From IMG/VR virus record IMGVR_UViG_3300048582_000105, positions 1-45,523 of that record: a DNA stretch of 45,523 nt, one strand, 5' to 3'. Below are positions 1 to 45,523 of this stretch, piece after piece. The notes beneath the pieces are model-generated. The model was not told the DNA's origin. It did not search any database and was given only the letters and a program-made list of their open reading frames with translations. Origin of the DNA: a virus. The position numbers and the translations under genes were made by a program. Position 1 is the first letter of the stretch, and each line of letters starts with the position of its first letter.

Positions 1-175
1 GTTGGGCGTCGACGGACGGCGCCTGGATCACGTCCGGGGTGCGCCGGGGGTTTCGGGCCCGGGCGTCCTGCCGCTCCAGCTTCCGACGCTGCCGTTCGCG
101 CGCTAGTTCGAGGGCCATGTCCCGAAGGTCGTCTTCGGGCGTCCTGCGGGCCAGGGATTGACCGGGCTGTTCCAT
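1..175 (-). CDS. Small terminase subunit, second allele (N-terminal part, cut by contig end)
   Basis: The frame starts at the ATG read leftward from 175 and runs off the contig start after 58 codons. It encodes the same N-terminus (MEQPGQSLARRTPEDD) as the complete gene at 44516-44968. The four substitutions I could place within codons are all silent third- or first-position changes: TTG/CTG, GCT/GCC, CCT/CCC and GAT/GAC. Silent-only divergence is what is expected of a functional allele from a sister strain, not of a decaying copy or sequencing noise. Unlike the complete locus, no gp49-like gene lies upstream; the leader runs straight into the terminator at 203-238. Confidence 0.75.
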   Translation of the reverse strand, partial: MEQPGQSLARRTPEDDLRDMALELARERQRRKLERQDARARNPRRTPDVIQAPSVDAQ

Positions 176-211: not shown

Positions 212-281
212 ACCCCCGACCTTTGTGGGGCCGGGGGTGAGTTGGGGTCGACTGACTGCTGAACCCTGGGGAGAGTTCTCG
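181..281. repeat. Exact terminal repeat, copy 1 (matches 45423-45523)
   Basis: All 101 bases recur at the right end of the window at an offset of 45,242. This marks the closure point of a circular map. It is not a genuine physical end, because the redundancy begins 180 bases inside the left end. Confidence 0.95.
203..238 (-). terminator. Rho-independent terminator, minus strand
   Basis: Read leftward, the stem is 7 bp (arms 212-218 and 232-238, ACCCCCG/CGGGGGT) with further C-G pairs inside, followed directly by CTTTTCTTT (203-211). It lies upstream of the small terminase gene, so it would stop leftward transcripts from beyond and insulate the late operon. The identical element recurs at 45445-45480. 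Confidence 0.7.
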
Positions 282-2729: not shown

Positions 2730-3130
2730 TGCCTGAATTTCAACTAGACACCAGCCGGCCGGCAACGGTCGACTTTTCGGACTTGAGCGACTTCGCGCAA
2801 GGTTACGTGGAGGCCCTGTTTTTCTGCGCCCAAGGCGACGACGACGGGATGGACGTGGCAACCTTCGCGGACCTGTCGCTAGGCGCCCTGTGCCGGATTG
2901 TGGCCGATTGCGACGCCTTCGGGGAGCAATGGGGCGACCTGGACGAAATAGCGCCCGACTATGACAGGCGCCAAGCCGGCCGGGACTTTTGGTTTTCCCG
3001 CTGCGGGCACGGGGTCGGCTTCTGGGACCGGGGCTTGGGGGAGGTTGGCGATCGACTGCACGACCTGGCCCAATCCTTCGGCAACCTTGACCCCTATATG
3101 GACGACGACGGCAAGGTCTATCTGGCATGA
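2729..3130 (+). CDS. Hypothetical acidic protein, 133 aa
   Basis: The start was taken at the ATG overlapping the previous stop (TGATG at 2727-2731). The longer frame upstream would read into the preceding gene. The protein is acidic, with clusters of Asp (QGDDDGMD, residues about 35-42, and YMDDDGK near the end) and many Phe/Trp. This composition resembles small phage DNA mimics, but no known family is evident. The stop overlaps the next start (ATGA). Confidence 0.65.
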   Translation: MPEFQLDTSRPATVDFSDLSDFAQGYVEALFFCAQGDDDGMDVATFADLSLGALCRIVADCDAFGEQWGDLDEIAPDYDRRQAGRDFWFSRCGHGVGFWDRGLGEVGDRLHDLAQSFGNLDPYMDDDGKVYLA

Positions 3131-3264
3131 AGCGACGGCGCCGACGCTTTCGCCGCCCTGCCGTCAACCCCCACGCTATCCGGAAACGCCGCCGAACGCG
3201 GCCCGGCCTTGCATGGCTGGCCCTAGGGATCCTCGCCGCCCTCCCCCTGTTGACGGGCGGTTGA
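3127..3264 (+). CDS. Arg-rich single-pass membrane peptide, 45 aa
   Basis: The ATG lies in an ATGA overlap with the previous gene. The first 27 residues carry a very basic stretch (MKRRRRRFRR, then RKRRRTR). One hydrophobic segment follows (residues about 28-42) and a short Thr/Gly end. A strongly positive N-terminus before a single hydrophobic span predicts an N-in inner-membrane peptide. The stop codon TGA is the first part of AGAATAGACTA copy 5, so the end of this gene and the next promoter-like element are fused. Confidence 0.5.
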   Translation: MKRRRRRFRRPAVNPHAIRKRRRTRPGLAWLALGILAALPLLTGG

Positions 3265-3274
3265 GAATAGACTA
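3264..3274 (+). promoter_or_regulatory. AGAATAGACTA motif, copy 5
   Basis: Identical 11-mer, 38 bases before the ATG at 3313. Its first base is the last base of the preceding stop codon. TTGACG lies 12 bases upstream of TAGACT, which is too close for a standard -35. Confidence 0.55.
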
Positions 3275-3312
3275 GACGAATCGAGAGCAGCAGAGAGAAA
3301 GGAACGAATCAG

Positions 3313-3594
3313 ATGGAGACGGCAAATTTCGGCGGCCCCTTGGAGGTCCGCGACGGGTCCGCGGTGTTTTCGCCCGCAAACGACGCCCGGCCCTATTCGG
3401 TGCGCGTGGCGGATTGCCTGGGCTATCAGGCCGACCGCGAGGCATACGCCCGCCTTTTTGCGGCCGCGCCCGAATTGCTGGCGGTGCTGCGGGATATTGT
3501 CGCCGGCAACAACGGCCAGCCGCGAGGCGTGACCGTTCCGGCGCTTGATGCAGCCCGCGCCGCCATCGCCAAGGCAGAAGGGACCGCAGCATGA
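3313..3594 (+). CDS. Hypothetical protein with phage-type AAAPELL segment, 93 aa
   Basis: The ATG follows AAAGGAACGAATCAG. The N-terminal half is beta-rich (GPLEVRDGSAVFSP). The C-terminal half holds an ARLFAAAPELLAVLRDIV helix (residues about 46-63), a segment I know from many small phage early proteins of unknown function. A second Ala-rich helix then follows. The stop overlaps the next start (ATGA at 3591-3594). Confidence 0.65.
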   Translation: METANFGGPLEVRDGSAVFSPANDARPYSVRVADCLGYQADREAYARLFAAAPELLAVLRDIVAGNNGQPRGVTVPALDAARAAIAKAEGTAA

Positions 3595-4253: not shown

Positions 4254-5066
4254 ATGAAATTTGAGATCAAGTTACGTTTTTCGGCGCGCGTCATTTTCAC
4301 GGCTGAAATCGAGTGCGACGAGGGCGCAAGCCACGGTGTCAAGCTGGGGCTTGCTGTCGGAGCCGCAATCAAGGCGGGTGCCAACCTGTCGCGTGCCGAC
4401 CTGTCGGGTGCCAACCTGTCGCGCGCCGACCTGTCGCGTGCCAACCTGTCGCGTGCCGACCTGTCGGGTGCCAACCTGTGGGGTGCCGACCTGTCGCGTG
4501 CCAACCTGTGGGGTGCCGACCTGTCGCGCGCCGAACTGTCGGATGCCAACCTGTGGGGTGCCGACCTGTCGGATGCCAACCTGTCGGGTGCCTACCTGTC
4601 GGGTGCCGACCTGTCGGGTGCCAGCCTGTCGCGTGCCGACCTGTCGGGTGCCTACCTGTCGGGTGCCGACCTGTCGGGTGCCTACCTGTCGGGTGCCTAC
4701 CTGTCGGGTGCCGACCTGTCGGGTGCCTACCTGTCGGGTGCCTACCTGTCGGGTGCCGACCTGTCGGGTGCCGACCTGTCGCGTGCCGACCTGTCGGGTG
4801 CCTACCTGTCGGGTGCCGACCTGTCGGGTGCCAACCTGTCGGGTGCCGGGATCAGGGCTTGGGTAGCTCAGGCTCGCCGCTCCGACGGATACGATTTCTT
4901 CGCGTTCGACACCGACCAAGGCGTGAAGGTCAAGGCTGGTTGCCGTTGGTTCACGGTCGCGGAATACCGGGCGCACGTGGCGGCGGAATATCCCGACACG
5001 CCGAAGGCCGCCGAGACGCTGGCGATCCTCGCCTTCATTCACGCGCGGGCCGGGGCAGCCGTATGA
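4254..5066 (+). CDS. Pentapeptide-repeat protein, 270 aa
   Basis: The ATG follows AAAGGAACGGAAC. Residues 1-41 form a beta-type N-terminal segment. Residues 42-196 are 31 uninterrupted pentapeptides of the A(D/N/Y)LSx type, which fold as a right-handed square beta-helix. Residues 200-270 form a separate C-terminal domain (YDFFAFDTDQGVKVKAGCRWF). Pentapeptide proteins such as MfpA and Qnr mimic DNA and bind gyrase, so gyrase protection or inhibition is plausible. Many others have unknown roles. The repeats are nearly identical at DNA level, implying recent expansion or homogenisation and possible length variation between isolates. The gene sits between two 70-bp direct repeats. Its stop overlaps the next start (ATGA). 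Confidence 0.9.
   Translation: MKFEIKLRFSARVIFTAEIECDEGASHGVKLGLAVGAAIKAGANLSRADLSGANLSRADLSRANLSRADLSGANLWGADLSRANLWGADLSRAELSDANLWGADLSDANLSGAYLSGADLSGASLSRADLSGAYLSGADLSGAYLSGAYLSGADLSGAYLSGAYLSGADLSGADLSRADLSGAYLSGADLSGANLSGAGIRAWVAQARRSDGYDFFAFDTDQGVKVKAGCRWFTVAEYRAHVAAEYPDTPKAAETLAILAFIHARAGAAV
4377..4841 (+). repeat. 31 tandem 15-bp units inside pentapeptide gene
   Basis: Each unit is close to GGTGCCGACCTGTCG, with changes mostly at the codons for residues 1 and 3 of the pentapeptide. Because the unit is a multiple of three with no stops, several other frames also stay open; these are not genes. Confidence 0.95.
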
Positions 5067-39573: not shown

Positions 39574-40545
39574 TTATCCCTTTCCGAATAGCGCCTTGGT
39601 CATTGCGTCCAACGCGCGGGGGTCTTCAATATCGTAGATGCTGACCCCTCCCTTGCCACCGCTCCCTTTGGGGAGAGACGCCGGCGGTGGAGGCGCCGTC
39701 GTAACCTTCCTCTTCGGCTCCGGCGCGGGCTGCGAGAACTTCGCCTCCATGCGTCCGAACCAGAGAGCCTGCTGCCTGGGGTTCATCTCGGCGACTTTGG
39801 CCGACTCCTCCGGGTTCTGCGCGAGGTAGTAGAGAATGTCGGGGGCAACTGCGGTTTCCACAGCCGTCTCGAACATCTCCTGCGTCAGTGCGAACTCGCC
39901 AGCAAGGGCGGCTTCGACGACAACCTCTTCGAAATCGGAGAATTTGGCTTGGCCGGCCTGAGTGACCTCGGCGGCTTTCTGACGGACTTGATCGGCTTCC
40001 CGATTGGCGGCTTCCGTCTGCCGGGCCTGTTCCTGCTCGCGCTGGACGGCCAGAAGTTCGCTCTTGACCTCGAACTTGGCAAGGTCGCGCATATACTGCG
40101 GGTCCAGTTCCCCGAACTTGTATTTTGCAGGATCGGGTTCCTGAAGCGCCTCCGTTGTATCGGAAGCCTTGGCAGCCGTCAAGTCAGGTTTTTCGGCCGC
40201 CGCGACGCGCGCCTGAAGCTCGGCGAGCGCCCTCTCGGCCTCGCGCTTGTCGGCGACCAGCTTCTTGATGCGGTCGGAAGTCGAGCGCTTGCGCTTCTCT
40301 ACCTCTTCAGGCTTCTCTTCACCGTCTTCAGCGTCGGGATCGCCGGCTTCAGGGTCGGTATCGGCCCCTTCGTCTCCGTCGGCGGCATCTGCGCGCTCGT
40401 CCACCCCATCGCCAGCCGGCTTGCCTTCGTCAGCAGGAGGGCTTTTTTCATCCGTCGGTTCTCCCGTTCCGTAGAGTTGTGCCGAAAATGCCTCCAGGTC
40501 GTCGGTGACTTCGCTGATCTGCGTTCCTTCAGTTGCGGTCGTCAT
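39574..40545 (-). CDS. Capsid scaffolding protein, 323 aa
   Basis: Acidic, disordered N-terminus (DTDPEAGDPDAEDGEEKPEE, residues about 62-81). Then a long coiled coil (SDRIKKLVADKREAERALAELQ, about 90-115) and helical middle. A basic C-terminal end (KRKVTTAPPPP, then YDIEDPRALDAMTKALFG) as in P22 gp8, whose basic tail binds coat. Position between portal and coat is decisive. It overlaps the portal gene by 17 bases and should leave the procapsid on packaging. Confidence 0.8.
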   Translation of the reverse strand: MTTATEGTQISEVTDDLEAFSAQLYGTGEPTDEKSPPADEGKPAGDGVDERADAADGDEGADTDPEAGDPDAEDGEEKPEEVEKRKRSTSDRIKKLVADKREAERALAELQARVAAAEKPDLTAAKASDTTEALQEPDPAKYKFGELDPQYMRDLAKFEVKSELLAVQREQEQARQTEAANREADQVRQKAAEVTQAGQAKFSDFEEVVVEAALAGEFALTQEMFETAVETAVAPDILYYLAQNPEESAKVAEMNPRQQALWFGRMEAKFSQPAPEPKRKVTTAPPPPASLPKGSGGKGGVSIYDIEDPRALDAMTKALFGKG

Positions 40546-42595
40546 TATCCTGTTCCTCTGCTTGGGTAGCTGCCTCTACGACCCGCATGCGGCGGTCGAA
40601 GTCGGCATTTTCCGCCTTGGCGGACACGTCCCGCTGCCGTGCGTCGGCATCGGAGAGCGCTTTCTGGCTGGTGGAGAGAAGGTTCTTCACCCGCGCCATG
40701 CGTTCGGCCGTCGTCGCGTTGATCTCGCGCACTTCGGCCTTCATCTTGTCGAGTTCGACTTTCTTGACCTCGTTGCCGAACTCAGCCTCGGCCTGAGCGG
40801 CCGCCTGCTCGTCCGGGGTCATTTCCTCGGGGTCACGCATGTTGGCCGGCATCGCGGCCTTGAAGCGCCGGGCAAATTCGGTCGCCTTCGGCCAATCCTG
40901 CGCCTCGGCCACGAGATCCATGACCAACTGCGCCGATTCCGGCGCCGCGTTCACGAACGTCATCATGGCTTCAGCCGCCAAGGCCCGCTTGGTGATGGTC
41001 GCGGGGCCAGTCGTGACCGCCAAGCCGTATTTCCCGACGGAAATGTCCGTCAGGGGCTCCGCGGGGTCGTTGATGACGGCCTGCATCACCTTGTCCTCGG
41101 CCCCCATGATCGTCACGACGCGGGTGGCGTCGAAAACGGTCGGGATGAGTTCGTTGCAGACCTTCGCAGCGCGTTCCTCGGCCAGCCGCAGCCGGTCGGT
41201 GTAGATGAAGCTGCCGAGGTCGGTCATCTGCTGGCGGGCGTTGATCGCCTTGGCCGAAACCTCGTTCGATTTCATGCCGAGCGCCGCTTCGTGGATATTC
41301 GACACGTCCCGAAGGTCCTGCGTCGTCATCTGCGTCTCGGTAAGCAACGCCTGGTCGACTTGCGGCGCCGCCACTCGCTCGGGCTTGCCGCCTTCGCTGT
41401 TGTAGATCAACAGCGGGTTGTCGGACAGGTGGGAGTTCTCCCAATCCTTCTCCCGGCCGCTGACGGCTTCCTGCGTCGCCATCCACTTGTTCCGCGGGGC
41501 CGCCACCATCTGCTCGGCCAAGAGGCTGCGCTGGTAGTTGTGGAGGCGCTGCGGGTCCTTCATGAACCGCACGAGGCCCCAGCGGTAGGTGCGGTCGCCA
41601 TTCCGCAGTTCCCACCCCGGCACACGGAAGATCGGAATGCTGGAGATCGGCAGGAAGGTCGGGCCTTCGAGGATATTCGCGCCCGAGCAGAGATACATCT
41701 CGGCGCCACGGTTGGGCACTTCCTTGATGTAGGGCGTGCCGTCGGGCCGCATGGCGACCTGCTCCATCGCCAAGAGCATCTCGACGGCCTGCTCGACGGA
41801 AATTCCGAGCGAGGGGTCGGGCTGAACGACCTTGTGGGCACCGTCCACCGTCAGGACGATCGTCTTCTTGCCCCGCTCAACCATCCGCCAGTAGGCGGCG
41901 ACCTTGATGGCATCCTGGCTGAACCATTCGTTCGACCGGGCGTGCGAAGCGCTGTCGAAATCCGTCTCCGCGGCCCACGGGTAACGCTTCTTGAACGCCT
42001 TCTTGCTGAGATTGTCGGACAGAAAGCCAAATTCAGCGTCGCCACCGCACGGCAAGACAGCCAGCGGGTCGAGAACGACGCTCAATGGGTCGACGACAGG
42101 CTTGAAGACGATGTTCTGGTCGAAAACCTCGTCGGAGGCATATTCGGTCGTCAAGGCGAAGTAGCCAACGCCTCCGATGACTTGGTATTTCATCGCCTCA
42201 TCGCGGGCGAAATCGCTTTCCGGCGACTTGAAGATCGCGCGGAGCAGCCCTTGGCGCAGTTCAGCGACTTCCTTTGTCCCGTCGCGCTCGGGATAGACCC
42301 GAATTTCGGTCTCGTTGACGAGGCGGTTGTTGACGATCTGCGCGACATAGGCCGGCAGGCGGTTGACCTTTAGAACGGGCTTCCGACGCTTCTCGCGGGC
42401 CGCGCGGACGACAGGATCCCACTGGTCGCCATAAGTGAACTCGATATCTTCGAGCATGGCGATGCGGTTGTGGTCGTCGGCCTCGATCCCGCGATCGTAG
42501 CACTCCCGCATCTCTTGCAGGAACGCTTGTTCGCTCTCATAGCCCTCGGGATCCTTGGGCTTCGGGCGCTTCTCGTCGTCGGAATAGTCGCTCAT
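40529..42595 (-). CDS. Portal protein (P22 family), 688 aa
   Basis: The start is the ATG overlapping the terminase stop (ATGA). The family signatures are DIEFTYGDQWDP (residues about 50-61), KPVLKVNRLPAYVAQIVN (72-89), then KYQVIGGVGYFAL, PAEPLTDISVGKYGLAVTTGP and a long C-terminal helical barrel with QAAAQAEAEFGNEVKKVELDK ending in a coiled coil, which fits P22's barrel. It forms the dodecameric ring for DNA passage and headful sensing. Confidence 0.85.
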   Translation of the reverse strand: MSDYSDDEKRPKPKDPEGYESEQAFLQEMRECYDRGIEADDHNRIAMLEDIEFTYGDQWDPVVRAAREKRRKPVLKVNRLPAYVAQIVNNRLVNETEIRVYPERDGTKEVAELRQGLLRAIFKSPESDFARDEAMKYQVIGGVGYFALTTEYASDEVFDQNIVFKPVVDPLSVVLDPLAVLPCGGDAEFGFLSDNLSKKAFKKRYPWAAETDFDSASHARSNEWFSQDAIKVAAYWRMVERGKKTIVLTVDGAHKVVQPDPSLGISVEQAVEMLLAMEQVAMRPDGTPYIKEVPNRGAEMYLCSGANILEGPTFLPISSIPIFRVPGWELRNGDRTYRWGLVRFMKDPQRLHNYQRSLLAEQMVAAPRNKWMATQEAVSGREKDWENSHLSDNPLLIYNSEGGKPERVAAPQVDQALLTETQMTTQDLRDVSNIHEAALGMKSNEVSAKAINARQQMTDLGSFIYTDRLRLAEERAAKVCNELIPTVFDATRVVTIMGAEDKVMQAVINDPAEPLTDISVGKYGLAVTTGPATITKRALAAEAMMTFVNAAPESAQLVMDLVAEAQDWPKATEFARRFKAAMPANMRDPEEMTPDEQAAAQAEAEFGNEVKKVELDKMKAEVREINATTAERMARVKNLLSTSQKALSDADARQRDVSAKAENADFDRRMRVVEAATQAEEQDNDDRN

Positions 42596-44217
42596 ACCAT
42601 CCACCCACCTTCGGACACGGAAGGTTCGTAATAGTCCGTATTCGGGCTAGGGGTCAATGCTGCGTCCCTGATGGACGGCTGCGGGCCGTCGTCCTTCGGA
42701 GCAAAATACTCTTTGGAGGCAAATGTCAAGGCCAGAGCGTCGGCGAGGTCGGGCGACCGAAGGCCCTTCGCCTTCATGTCGGCCTTGGACATGAGCAACC
42801 AGTCGAGGTTCGTGCGGAATATCTGCCGGACGGCCGCCAGGTCGGAGCCGAGGTCGTCGCTATTCGGTATCGAAGCGAATCCCTCGGGGTCCTCCAGCCA
42901 TTCCTTCAGTCGGCCATACATCTCGGCGCGGCGGTTTATGGGCCCGACGCGCTCCTTGTTCGCCATCTTGATCTGCGAGGGCGAGCCGAAGCTCACGGCG
43001 CGGATCTTGTTGCTGTAGGTCGGGCCGTAGCTCCTGAGTTCCGTGATGATCGCCTGGCCCATGTTTCCGCTGTCGATATTCACGCGGTCGGGGTCGTGTT
43101 GGTCGATCATGGACTTGACCCATTGAACGGCTTCCCTGTGCTGGAGTTTGGTGCGCCACTGAATGACCGGAACGGCGTTGCCGTGGCGCATGAGGATGGC
43201 GAAACGGTCGCCGCCACCGCCGGCCGGGTCGACGCCCATGATCTTCGGGCCAGCGGCTTCGGTCTTGCGGCCGCGGGCGCGAAGAATGGCGGCCGGATTG
43301 ATGAACGTGTCCGTCTCGATCGACGACCAGGCGTCGTCCGGGTTCATTGGATACTCCCGCTTGAACCTCTGGAGCCCGAGTTCGTCGGCCTTGATGCGCC
43401 TCCACATCATCTGGCCGTCCGTGAGGTCGAAGACTTGCGCCATTTCGGCCTCGGAGAGCGTCATGTCGTCCGGCGCCACGTCATTCAGCTTGAAGCTGGC
43501 CGGTGGCGGGAAGTGATATTCCTTCTGGATGAACCACGGCACGAAAATGGACTGGTAGATGCCGCCCTCTTGCTCGCCCTGCCGGTAGTTCTCGAAATAT
43601 TTGCCCGTCGGGCCGGCCGAAGTGCTTTCGAGGATGATTTCGGTGTTCGGCAGGAGGGCCACGCAGTTCACCGACGCGGCGAAATGGCTTTCGGCGTTCT
43701 GCCAGAAGGCCACTTCGGAGCCGTGGAAGAGGTTGATATCATCCCCGCGGCCACCTTCCTGCGCGCCGGCGGTCGCCACCGAGTAGGAGCCTTCCAGACC
43801 CGGGAACGTGAGCATCTGGGCGTTGTCCGTGCCTGTTTCCGGCCCGAATGGGTTGTATTTGTGGTAGCGCTCAACCATCCCGAACAGCGCCAGGGCCGAT
43901 TTCTTCTCGTGGGAGAGGATATAGACCTTCCGGCCAAAAAAGAGGGTCGCTCGCCAGTAGTAGCGCGCGGCCACGTAGGTCGAAATGCCTTGCCGGCGCC
44001 CTTTGAGGACGGTTGCCCGCACCATGCCAGTTTCCCGGCGCTGCTTCTCCAGGCGCTCGTGGACGACCCGCTGCGCGTCATTGAAGACGAGTGGCACCAA
44101 CTTGCCTTCTTTGTTGAGGATCTTCAGGCAGTCCTTAGCAAAGAGTTCGAGCCCCTTGTCGGGGTCCCGCCAGAGCTTCAACCGCTCGACGAGGGGGTTG
44201 GGCTCGGTCACTGCCAT
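42592..44217 (-). CDS. Large terminase subunit, 541 aa
   Basis: The start is the ATG from 44217, inside the end of the small gene upstream. ATPase motifs: Walker A-like VLKGRRQGIST (residues about 70-80), Walker B/catalytic block NTEIILESTS (about 191-200). RuvC-type nuclease motifs: IMGVDPAGGGGDRF (Asp near residue 325), RVNIDSGNMGQ, and DLADALALTF near residue 490. This is the packaging motor and headful nuclease. The stop overlaps the portal start. Confidence 0.9.
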   Translation of the reverse strand: MAVTEPNPLVERLKLWRDPDKGLELFAKDCLKILNKEGKLVPLVFNDAQRVVHERLEKQRRETGMVRATVLKGRRQGISTYVAARYYWRATLFFGRKVYILSHEKKSALALFGMVERYHKYNPFGPETGTDNAQMLTFPGLEGSYSVATAGAQEGGRGDDINLFHGSEVAFWQNAESHFAASVNCVALLPNTEIILESTSAGPTGKYFENYRQGEQEGGIYQSIFVPWFIQKEYHFPPPASFKLNDVAPDDMTLSEAEMAQVFDLTDGQMMWRRIKADELGLQRFKREYPMNPDDAWSSIETDTFINPAAILRARGRKTEAAGPKIMGVDPAGGGGDRFAILMRHGNAVPVIQWRTKLQHREAVQWVKSMIDQHDPDRVNIDSGNMGQAIITELRSYGPTYSNKIRAVSFGSPSQIKMANKERVGPINRRAEMYGRLKEWLEDPEGFASIPNSDDLGSDLAAVRQIFRTNLDWLLMSKADMKAKGLRSPDLADALALTFASKEYFAPKDDGPQPSIRDAALTPSPNTDYYEPSVSEGGWMV

Positions 44218-44426
44218 ACGCCCTTCTCGGTCGTGTGTTCGCGCCGGTCCACGCTGTTGTGGTCCCATTCGGGGTCGCCGCCGCCGGAAATGTCGACCGG
44301 CTGGCACCAGCAGCCCCCGCTCAGGATATGCGGCTTCATGTCGTTCCGGGGAATGCAGTGGGAGCACTCGTCACCCGGGAGAAGCGCCCACCCGAGGCCA
44401 AGGGCCATCAGGGCGTCAGGCGTCAT
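44208..44426 (-). CDS. Small conserved Cys-rich protein between terminase genes, 72 aa
   Basis: Start at the ATG from 44426; the internal Met at residue 7 is a second possibility. The core ECSHCIPRNDMKPHILSG, then GCWCQPVD, and DHNSVDRRE is a widespread phage pattern (DL-H with CWC and H-x-D-R) of unknown function. The Cys/His set suggests metal binding. It overlaps the large terminase start by 10 bases. Confidence 0.7.
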   Translation of the reverse strand: MTPDALMALGLGWALLPGDECSHCIPRNDMKPHILSGGCWCQPVDISGGGDPEWDHNSVDRREHTTEKGVWQ

Positions 44427-44515: not shown

Positions 44516-44968
44516 TCAGAAAATCGAGGGGTCGGTTTCACTGCTTTGCTCCTGCGGCGAAACGACGTGATAATCCACGCCTTCCTCCATGTCCAGCGCC
44601 TTCACCGCCTCTTCCAACGTGATCGTGCCCCCGACTTCGATCTGCTTCGGCGCCGTGATGACCTTCGGGAACAGCTTGGTGTAGAAGTCCCCGGGGTTCT
44701 CTTCCGCCCAATCGGCCATCGCTTCGACGCCACCGACTTCCTCGAACACCGTCATCACCACGTTGCCGGCGTAGCGGCCAATGTTGGCGTAGAGTTGGGC
44801 GTCGACGGACGGCGCCTGGATCACGTCCGGGGTGCGCCGGGGGTTTCGGGCCCGGGCGTCCTGCCGCTCCAGCTTCCGACGCTGCCGTTCGCGCGCTAGT
44901 TCGAGGGCCATGTCCCGAAGATCGTCTTCAGGCGTCCTGCGAGCCAAGGATTGACCGGGCTGTTCCAT
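44516..44968 (-). CDS. Small terminase subunit, complete allele, 150 aa
   Basis: The start is taken at the ATG from 44968 (MEQPGQSLARRTPEDD); the longer frame reads through the terminator and repeat. Residues about 15-45 are basic and helical (ELARERQRRKLERQDARARN). Residues 60-110 are helical (DAQLYANIGRYAGNVVMTVF, GGVEAMADWAEENPGDFYTKLF), where the DFYTKLFPKVI pattern is common in small terminase proteins. It would recognise pac and load the large subunit. The first 58 codons are present as a second allele at 1-175. No strong Shine-Dalgarno is seen. Confidence 0.75.
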   Translation of the reverse strand: MEQPGQSLARRTPEDDLRDMALELARERQRRKLERQDARARNPRRTPDVIQAPSVDAQLYANIGRYAGNVVMTVFEEVGGVEAMADWAEENPGDFYTKLFPKVITAPKQIEVGGTITLEEAVKALDMEEGVDYHVVSPQEQSSETDPSIF

Positions 44969-45004
44969 GACTGCTGTATGCCAGCGTTGGGCCGGAAAGA
45001 AAAG
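44794..45004. repeat. Direct repeat A, complete-locus copy
   Basis: Partner of 1-211 with six substitutions. It ends at the stem of terminator 45004-45027. The last 31 bases (44974-45004) occur a third time at 45423-45453, on the far side of the gp49-like gene. Confidence 0.9.
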
Positions 45005-45027
45005 GGGCGGACCGGAAAGCCCGCCCC
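44995..45027 (-). terminator. Rho-independent terminator of the gp49-like gene
   Basis: Read leftward: GGGGCGG stem (arms 45004-45010 and 45021-45027) followed by CTTTTCTTT. It lies seven bases after the gp49-like stop and before the small terminase, so the gene carries its own terminator. Confidence 0.75.
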
Positions 45028-45033
45028 GGTTCG

Positions 45034-45381
45034 CTAGGCGGAAAGGCGCTCCCGCAGCGCGTAGCCTTCCAGCGGCCAAAGCTGCTTGATGGCATCCTCG
45101 TAGGCGAACCTCTTGCCCTTCTCCGGGTCGAAGTTCTCCGGAGATGCGGGCGCGCTTTTGCCAATGATGGTGGAGCCGTTCTGCATCACCAGAATGCAGA
45201 TTGTCAGCAGGTCAAGCGGGTTGTTGTTGCTCGCCGTCTGGTAAAGCGCGGCCTCGGCCTCGCCTGCCGTAAAATACAACTCGCGCTCGATCTTCCTTTC
45301 CATATCGGCAAGGGAAACACGCGGGGCAGTCGCCCGTGCTGCGCTGTAGTCGTCGGTGGCTTTCAGTGTTTCGCTGTGCAT
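45034..45381 (-). CDS. Moron-like gp49/gp66-family protein, 115 aa
   Basis: ATG with GGAGAG seven bases upstream. The C-terminal two thirds match the N4 gp49 / Sf6 gp66 family: LTICILVMQNGSTIIGKSA (residues about 59-77), SPENFDPEKGKRFAYEDAI (about 80-98) and LWPLEGYALRERL (about 101-113). The function of the family is not known. The gene sits as a cassette: 31-bp repeat and terminator on each side. The allele at 1-281 joins the same flanks without it. That is moron-like organisation. Confidence 0.8.
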   Translation of the reverse strand: MHSETLKATDDYSAARATAPRVSLADMERKIERELYFTAGEAEAALYQTASNNNPLDLLTICILVMQNGSTIIGKSAPASPENFDPEKGKRFAYEDAIKQLWPLEGYALRERLSA

Positions 45382-45422
45382 GTTAGCTCTCCAGCTATTT
45401 ACCGCCGTTTTGGCGGCCAGGG

Positions 45423-45523
45423 CTGTATGCCAGCGTTGGGCGGGAAAGAAAAGACCCCCGACCTTTGTGGGGCCGGGGGTGAGTTGGGGTCGACTGACTG
45501 CTGAACCCTGGGGAGAGTTCTCG
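45423..45523. repeat. Exact terminal repeat, copy 2 (matches 181-281)
   Basis: Identical to 181-281. Its first 31 bases also match 44974-45004 with one change, so three copies of that 31-mer exist, each beside a minus-strand terminator or its stem. Confidence 0.95.
45445..45480 (-). terminator. Terminator copy upstream of the gp49-like gene
   Basis: Same hairpin and CTTTTCTTT tract as 203-238. It closes off leftward transcription before the gp49-like gene. The 70 bases between it and the ATG contain CCGCC-AAAAC-GGCGG, a small stem, and should hold the gene's promoter, which I cannot pinpoint. Confidence 0.7.

Follow-up and report, generated by a model that had tools for sequence, protein, structure and literature searches.

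The window (45,523 bases, one IMG/VR virus record) carries at its two ends two apparently co-occurring alleles of one locus, which differ by a probably optional anti-CBASS cassette of the Acb4 family that was most likely imported by recombination. We give this explanation, the best overall, a probability of about 0.7. The cassette is a real and well-delimited moron of an anti-CBASS family, apparently found here in both states.

Genome context

The window is one podovirus genome of circular type in assembly terms, since the contig ends overlap, and both ends bear alleles of a locus situated just 5' of the putative small-terminase gene. The circular length is 44,793 bp without the 449-bp difference between the alleles versus 45,242 bp with it. 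The contig would thus represent one lytic-type podovirus genome of ~44.8 kb without the gene or ~45.2 kb with it, whose assembly probably closed on itself via the two co-occurring alleles. From the right end, the late genes run leftward (putative small terminase, large terminase, P22-like portal, scaffold, and major head protein); from the left end, the early genes and those for replication run rightward (primase-helicase, helicase, and DNA polymerase). The small terminase is so named, as putative, from its position before a TerL (phrog_2) alone; searches of family models (Pfam, phrog) gave no match for it. The features of the locus and its context are as follows.

40529 to 42604, minus strand: P22-like portal protein (context; PF16510, E 1.9e-138)
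42592 to 44226, minus strand: large terminase (context; phrog_2, E 2.7e-31)
44516 to 44968, minus strand: putative small-terminase gene of allele A, 150 aa, placed before TerL, as is its 70% identical homologue in relative L004
44974 to 45004: 31-bp repeat r1, downstream copy, with one mismatch to r2 at the site corresponding to 200
45004 to 45027, minus strand: the cassette's own terminator-like hairpin (folding z -3.0), with its tail (44994 to 45003) provided by repeat r1
45034 to 45381, minus strand: Acb4-family gene (PF13876, Phage_gp49_66), 115 aa, probable cyclic-nucleotide sponge, from Pfam, identity to N4, profile and fold
45382 to 45422, minus strand: gene leader with a small stem-loop (GCCGCCAAAACGGCGG, hairpin from folding) and ribosome-binding site AGCTGGAGAGCTAAC
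45423 to 45453: 31-bp repeat r2, upstream copy, made of a terminator T-tail and the TGGCATACAG element
45454 to 45480, minus strand: terminator-like hairpin upstream of the cassette, common to allele B (folding z -3.3)
1 to 127: exact match to 44794 to 44920, of a length that fits a k=127 assembly-graph vertex, with divergence starting right after
1 to 175, minus strand: 5' end of the putative small-terminase gene in its allele B copy, with four synonymous SNPs in 58 codons and an unchanged protein
181 to 211: the one 31-bp repeat that allele B has, with the same sequence as r2
212 to 238, minus strand: terminator-like hairpin of allele B (folding z -3.3)

Several other elements were observed in the early region. 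AGAATAGACTA occurs there in five exact copies, all on the plus strand (428-438, 549-559, 631-641, 1432-1442, and 3264-3274), where 0.06 were expected, and similar copies are found in the corresponding region of L004; these are probably early promoters or operators. Self-BLAST found a long imperfect palindrome near the early genes (1281-1377). A pentapeptide-repeat protein of 270 aa (4254-5066, plus strand) is encoded over a 15-bp tandem array of 31.6 copies and could be a DNA mimic.

Two alleles at the contig ends

Allele A spans 44794-45523 and holds a 115-codon gene between two 31-bp repeats, while allele B spans 1-281 and lacks exactly the 449-bp period. Read leftward, allele A consists of a hairpin (45480-45454), repeat r2, the leader with its ribosome-binding site, the gene, a second hairpin (45027-45004), repeat r1, and the small-terminase gene, versus a hairpin (238-212), a single repeat, and the small-terminase gene in allele B. 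The two repeats of allele A are identical at 30 of 31 positions (self-BLAST E 1.5e-7) and are spaced 449 bp apart. All three hairpins fold better than shuffled sequences (z about -3) and are followed by CTTTTCTTT, which is located inside the repeat. A gene-bearing right end and a gene-less left end had been described in the original prediction, and alignments, repeats, and hairpins confirm that this structure is real.

Positions 1-211 and 44794-45004 are identical at 205 of 211 sites, with mismatches at 128, 137, 149, 154, 179, and 200, and positions 180-281 match 45422-45523 exactly over 102 bp. It had been claimed that the terminase copies differ only silently. This is correct for the four SNPs inside the gene, but the fifth (179) lies 4 nt upstream of the ATG; the sixth difference (200) falls in the 31-bp repeat.

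With metaSPAdes run at a largest k of 127, an exact run of 127 bp followed by divergence corresponds to a graph vertex with two outgoing branches. The run at the left end stops where the first SNP occurs, which is what a graph bubble would produce, and on this picture both alleles have the same backbone upstream of the vertex. The right-hand overlap is 102 bp and not 127, which places that junction below a full k-mer, and the end of allele A may be an assembly-graph dead end.

Physical direct terminal repeats were rejected as an explanation, because such copies should be identical and these differ by 449 bp and six SNPs. A decidedly unlikely alternative is an assembly chimera, in which one end, that of allele A or else the left one, derives from a different phage and was attached by way of a common stretch. 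Contig ends are a usual place of mis-joins, and the right overlap differs from the k-mer length. Against this, the flanks of both junctions match one and the same genome at every base (127 and 102 bp), although the nearest other phages are only ~70% identical in protein; such flanks would demand a second phage that is nearly identical, and this amounts to the two-allele reading. Since the closest relatives of the locus are only about 68-70% identical at the protein level and the flanks match exactly over 127 and 102 bp, the alleles are assigned to one phage species, and we infer that two variants of this phage co-exist in the sample. The earlier proposal that the gene segregates in one phage population, being present in one allele and absent from the other, is thus most likely right. 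An exact pattern search for part of the 31-bp repeat in IMG/VR found no further record, and nearby DNA gave only short matches in phage records, confined to the PF13876 gene.

The cassette gene belongs to the Acb4 family

The 115-aa protein matches PF13876 at 79.1 bits (E 3.7e-22; curated cut-off 27) and is 41% identical to phage N4 gp48 (Acb4) over 96 aa. A profile built from its relatives matches the SPO1 Acb4 chain (PDB 9e4w) with an E value of 1.3e-5. Its AlphaFold (AF2) model, with a pLDDT of 90.5, fits the Acb4 fold of helices, a three-stranded sheet, and a long C-terminal helical part: in Foldseek 13 chains of 9e4w were the only PDB matches with a probability of 1.00 (E 4.5e-3 to 2.4e-2; TM 0.50-0.54 by query and 0.62-0.73 by target), the next best reaching at most 0.69.

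Chang et al. (PMC11722364) identified PF13876 as the family of the anti-CBASS sponge Acb4, a tetramer that takes up 3'3'-cGAMP, and assigned SPO1 Acb4 to it. The description of the family as one of unknown function is therefore out of date; a literature search under the old family name yielded a single annotation paper. All eight Acb4 homologues tested bound 3'3'-cGAMP, and those that also bound 3'3'-cAA came solely from phages of Gram-negative hosts (PMC11722364). N4 Acb4 is active in cells and is both necessary and sufficient to trigger Panoptes defence (PMC12657230). The product of the cassette gene would thus most likely bind CBASS cyclic dinucleotides and keep the host suicide effector from being activated.

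The two reference proteins resemble the 115-aa protein in different ways. SPO1 Acb4, from a Bacillus phage, belongs to the same Pfam family and is the only high-probability PDB fold match, but identity is about 19-20%, most mapped ligand contacts differ, and a Gram-negative host is expected here. N4 gp48, from an Escherichia phage, shares 41% identity, scores above the PF13876 cut-off, and comes from a phage of a Gram-negative host; it lies directly before a Tad2-like gene, whereas the window gene is a stand-alone cassette at the terminase.

When the SPO1 ligand contacts were mapped by alignment, only F62 was kept (F84 here). The position of the guanine-stacking F48 is Ser70 in this protein, while 17 of 19 relatives have Phe, and the remaining contacts differ across the whole clade and partly also in the active N4 Acb4. 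Because of Ser70 and the retention of F62 only among the mapped contacts, ligand choice or strength may be altered. It is also conceivable, though unlikely, that the gene no longer encodes an active sponge or has another role: Acb4 has the fold of double-stranded-RNA-binding domains, some PF13876 members carry extra domains (PMC11722364), and both Ser70 in place of the family Phe and the poor conservation of most SPO1 contact residues would fit. Its intact reading frame, its full-length identity of 69-82% to many phage homologues, and the retention of F62 and the core motif argue for a working sponge instead, and N4 Acb4 works despite differing at several of the same contacts.

Two annotations of related genes were noted in passing. 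In phage N4 (L027:5633-6486) the Acb4 gene gp48 is followed directly by the Tad2-like gp49 (PF11195), and the Pfam name 'N4 Gp49' seems to be one gene off in current numbering. A PF13876-like homologue in Pseudomonas phage P7869 (L025:2507-2869) is annotated as 'anti-CRISPR protein'; family evidence points to an anti-CBASS function instead.

Origin of the two alleles

According to the original prediction, one form turns into the other by exchange between the 31-bp repeats. This is not supported, as every crossover in the repeat leaves at least five mismatches to allele B. When the exchange between r1 and r2 was modelled at every crossover point, 5-6 mismatches remained, and 128, 137, 149, 154, and 179 were always unexplained; a third, diverged template or later mutation is therefore needed. 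The six changes lie within 73 bp, with none in the adjoining 127 bp and 81 bp, the 127-bp edge being set by the assembler. Judged by this clustering, they look like a short tract imported from a diverged relative.

Direct deletion, by which allele B would have arisen from allele A through homologous exchange between the two repeats, would account for a structural difference of exactly one repeat period (449 bp) and for the identity of allele B's repeat to r2. We regard it as unlikely, because the five junction-adjacent SNPs match neither the r1 nor the r2 context and because L004, the nearest relative, is already gene-less. The most economical route would instead be recombination with a related phage through two crossovers, of which one fell in the 31-bp element and one within the terminase gene; this most likely also brought in the six clustered SNPs.

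An alignment of the locus in related phages, which had been proposed as a check, bears on the polarity of this event. L004, whose small terminase is 70% identical, has a gene-less layout like that of allele B, namely a hairpin, CTTTTCTTT, 12 nt, TGGCATACA, 6 nt, and ATG, with the same spacing. This stretch of L004 is identical to that of allele B at 31 of 42 positions ungapped, versus 22 for the next best match anywhere in L004, and its hairpin has a z of -4.2. The TGGCATACAG element is likewise kept in L004 with the same spacing. Since L004 has this layout, the gene-less state is probably ancestral and the insertion derived, with the polarity taken from this one relative. Allele B would then be the ancestral layout (terminator hairpin, T-tail, TGGCATACA element, and small-terminase gene), to which allele A would add a 449-bp cassette of leader and ribosome-binding site, Acb4-family gene, a terminator hairpin of its own, and the T-tail and TGGCATACA once more. 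A sigma-70 search gave no match at the candidate-promoter element TGGCATACA, nor did an Rfam search return any match.

A further relative, L028, has an unrelated ORF of 190 aa (2924-3496, plus strand) directly before the small terminase, in the slot of the Acb4 gene, so this slot takes different genes. By eye the ORF looks like an HNH nuclease; a Pfam search of it gave no match. In L004 (6924-8039), an in-frame stretch of ~1.1 kb interrupts the large-terminase gene at residue 170; it matches a Hint domain weakly and is a probable intein.

Moron character and distribution of the gene

The cassette had been called dispensable and a moron, and this agrees with its self-contained structure: it has its own terminator and ribosome-binding site and is absent from allele B. 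It is not mobile in the sense of moving itself, the 449 bp comprising one gene and no recombinase. The 115-aa ORF matching PF13876 is the sole recognisable gene in it; recombinase, transposase, homing nuclease, and terminal inverted repeats were not found in the 449 bp, whose ends are direct repeats. Like other phage morons it is a single gene with its own terminator and ribosome-binding site that is missing at the same site in relatives, but here the promoter is a conserved candidate element, and a duplicated unit of terminator tail and candidate promoter flanks the gene.

Homologues with as much as 82% identity are found in phages where hardly any other tested gene nearby is shared, with one weak match of 37% (L024). 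The copies of relatives adjoin endolysin, lysozyme, tail, or virion genes, and DNA similarity to them hardly extends beyond the ribosome-binding site and the ORF. The ribosome-binding-site block is common to relatives L007, L013, and L017, all in unrelated contexts, and a hairpin 3' of the gene was seen by eye in several relatives. In a T7-like group, the gene of L009 and L010 stands on the opposite strand, flanked by a tail gene and a gene for an internal virion protein; L037, L038, and L040 lack it in that slot. The closest bacterial homologue is a 76% identical copy in a Brevundimonas genome contig.

Host defences and implications

CBASS-type cyclase domains were found in 21 of 199 genomes of the bacterial family holding the Brevundimonas homologue, and the benefit of the gene would therefore be patchy. 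It would be useful only on hosts with CBASS-type systems and for this reason would be gained and lost. Sponges are also a liability: Panoptes fires upon Acb protein action, and T4 escapes it by losing acb2 (PMC12657218), so presence/absence variation is expected. We considered Panoptes as the counter-selecting defence and set it aside, as it has weak support for the Brevundimonas host group: mCpol (PF18182, Panoptes) was found in none of the 199 genomes of that bacterial family and, above the cut-off, in 2 of the 385 genomes of the class. A more far-reaching reading, which we offer only tentatively and think improbable, is that the two alleles represent a balanced presence/absence polymorphism of an anti-CBASS sponge gene in one natural phage population, in which patchy CBASS hosts are set against cost or sponge-sensing defences such as Panoptes and the duplicated element of terminator tail and candidate promoter serves as a docking site for cassette swaps.

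Phage genes of this kind are already known, and the locus is of value for its corrected function and as a natural pair of alleles. A gene formerly of unknown function becomes a probable named immune-evasion gene, with both states apparently found in one phage and with exact breakpoints. The matched alleles suit a clean competition experiment, and the pair allows a test of whether natural populations gain and lose anti-CBASS sponges according to the defences of their hosts.
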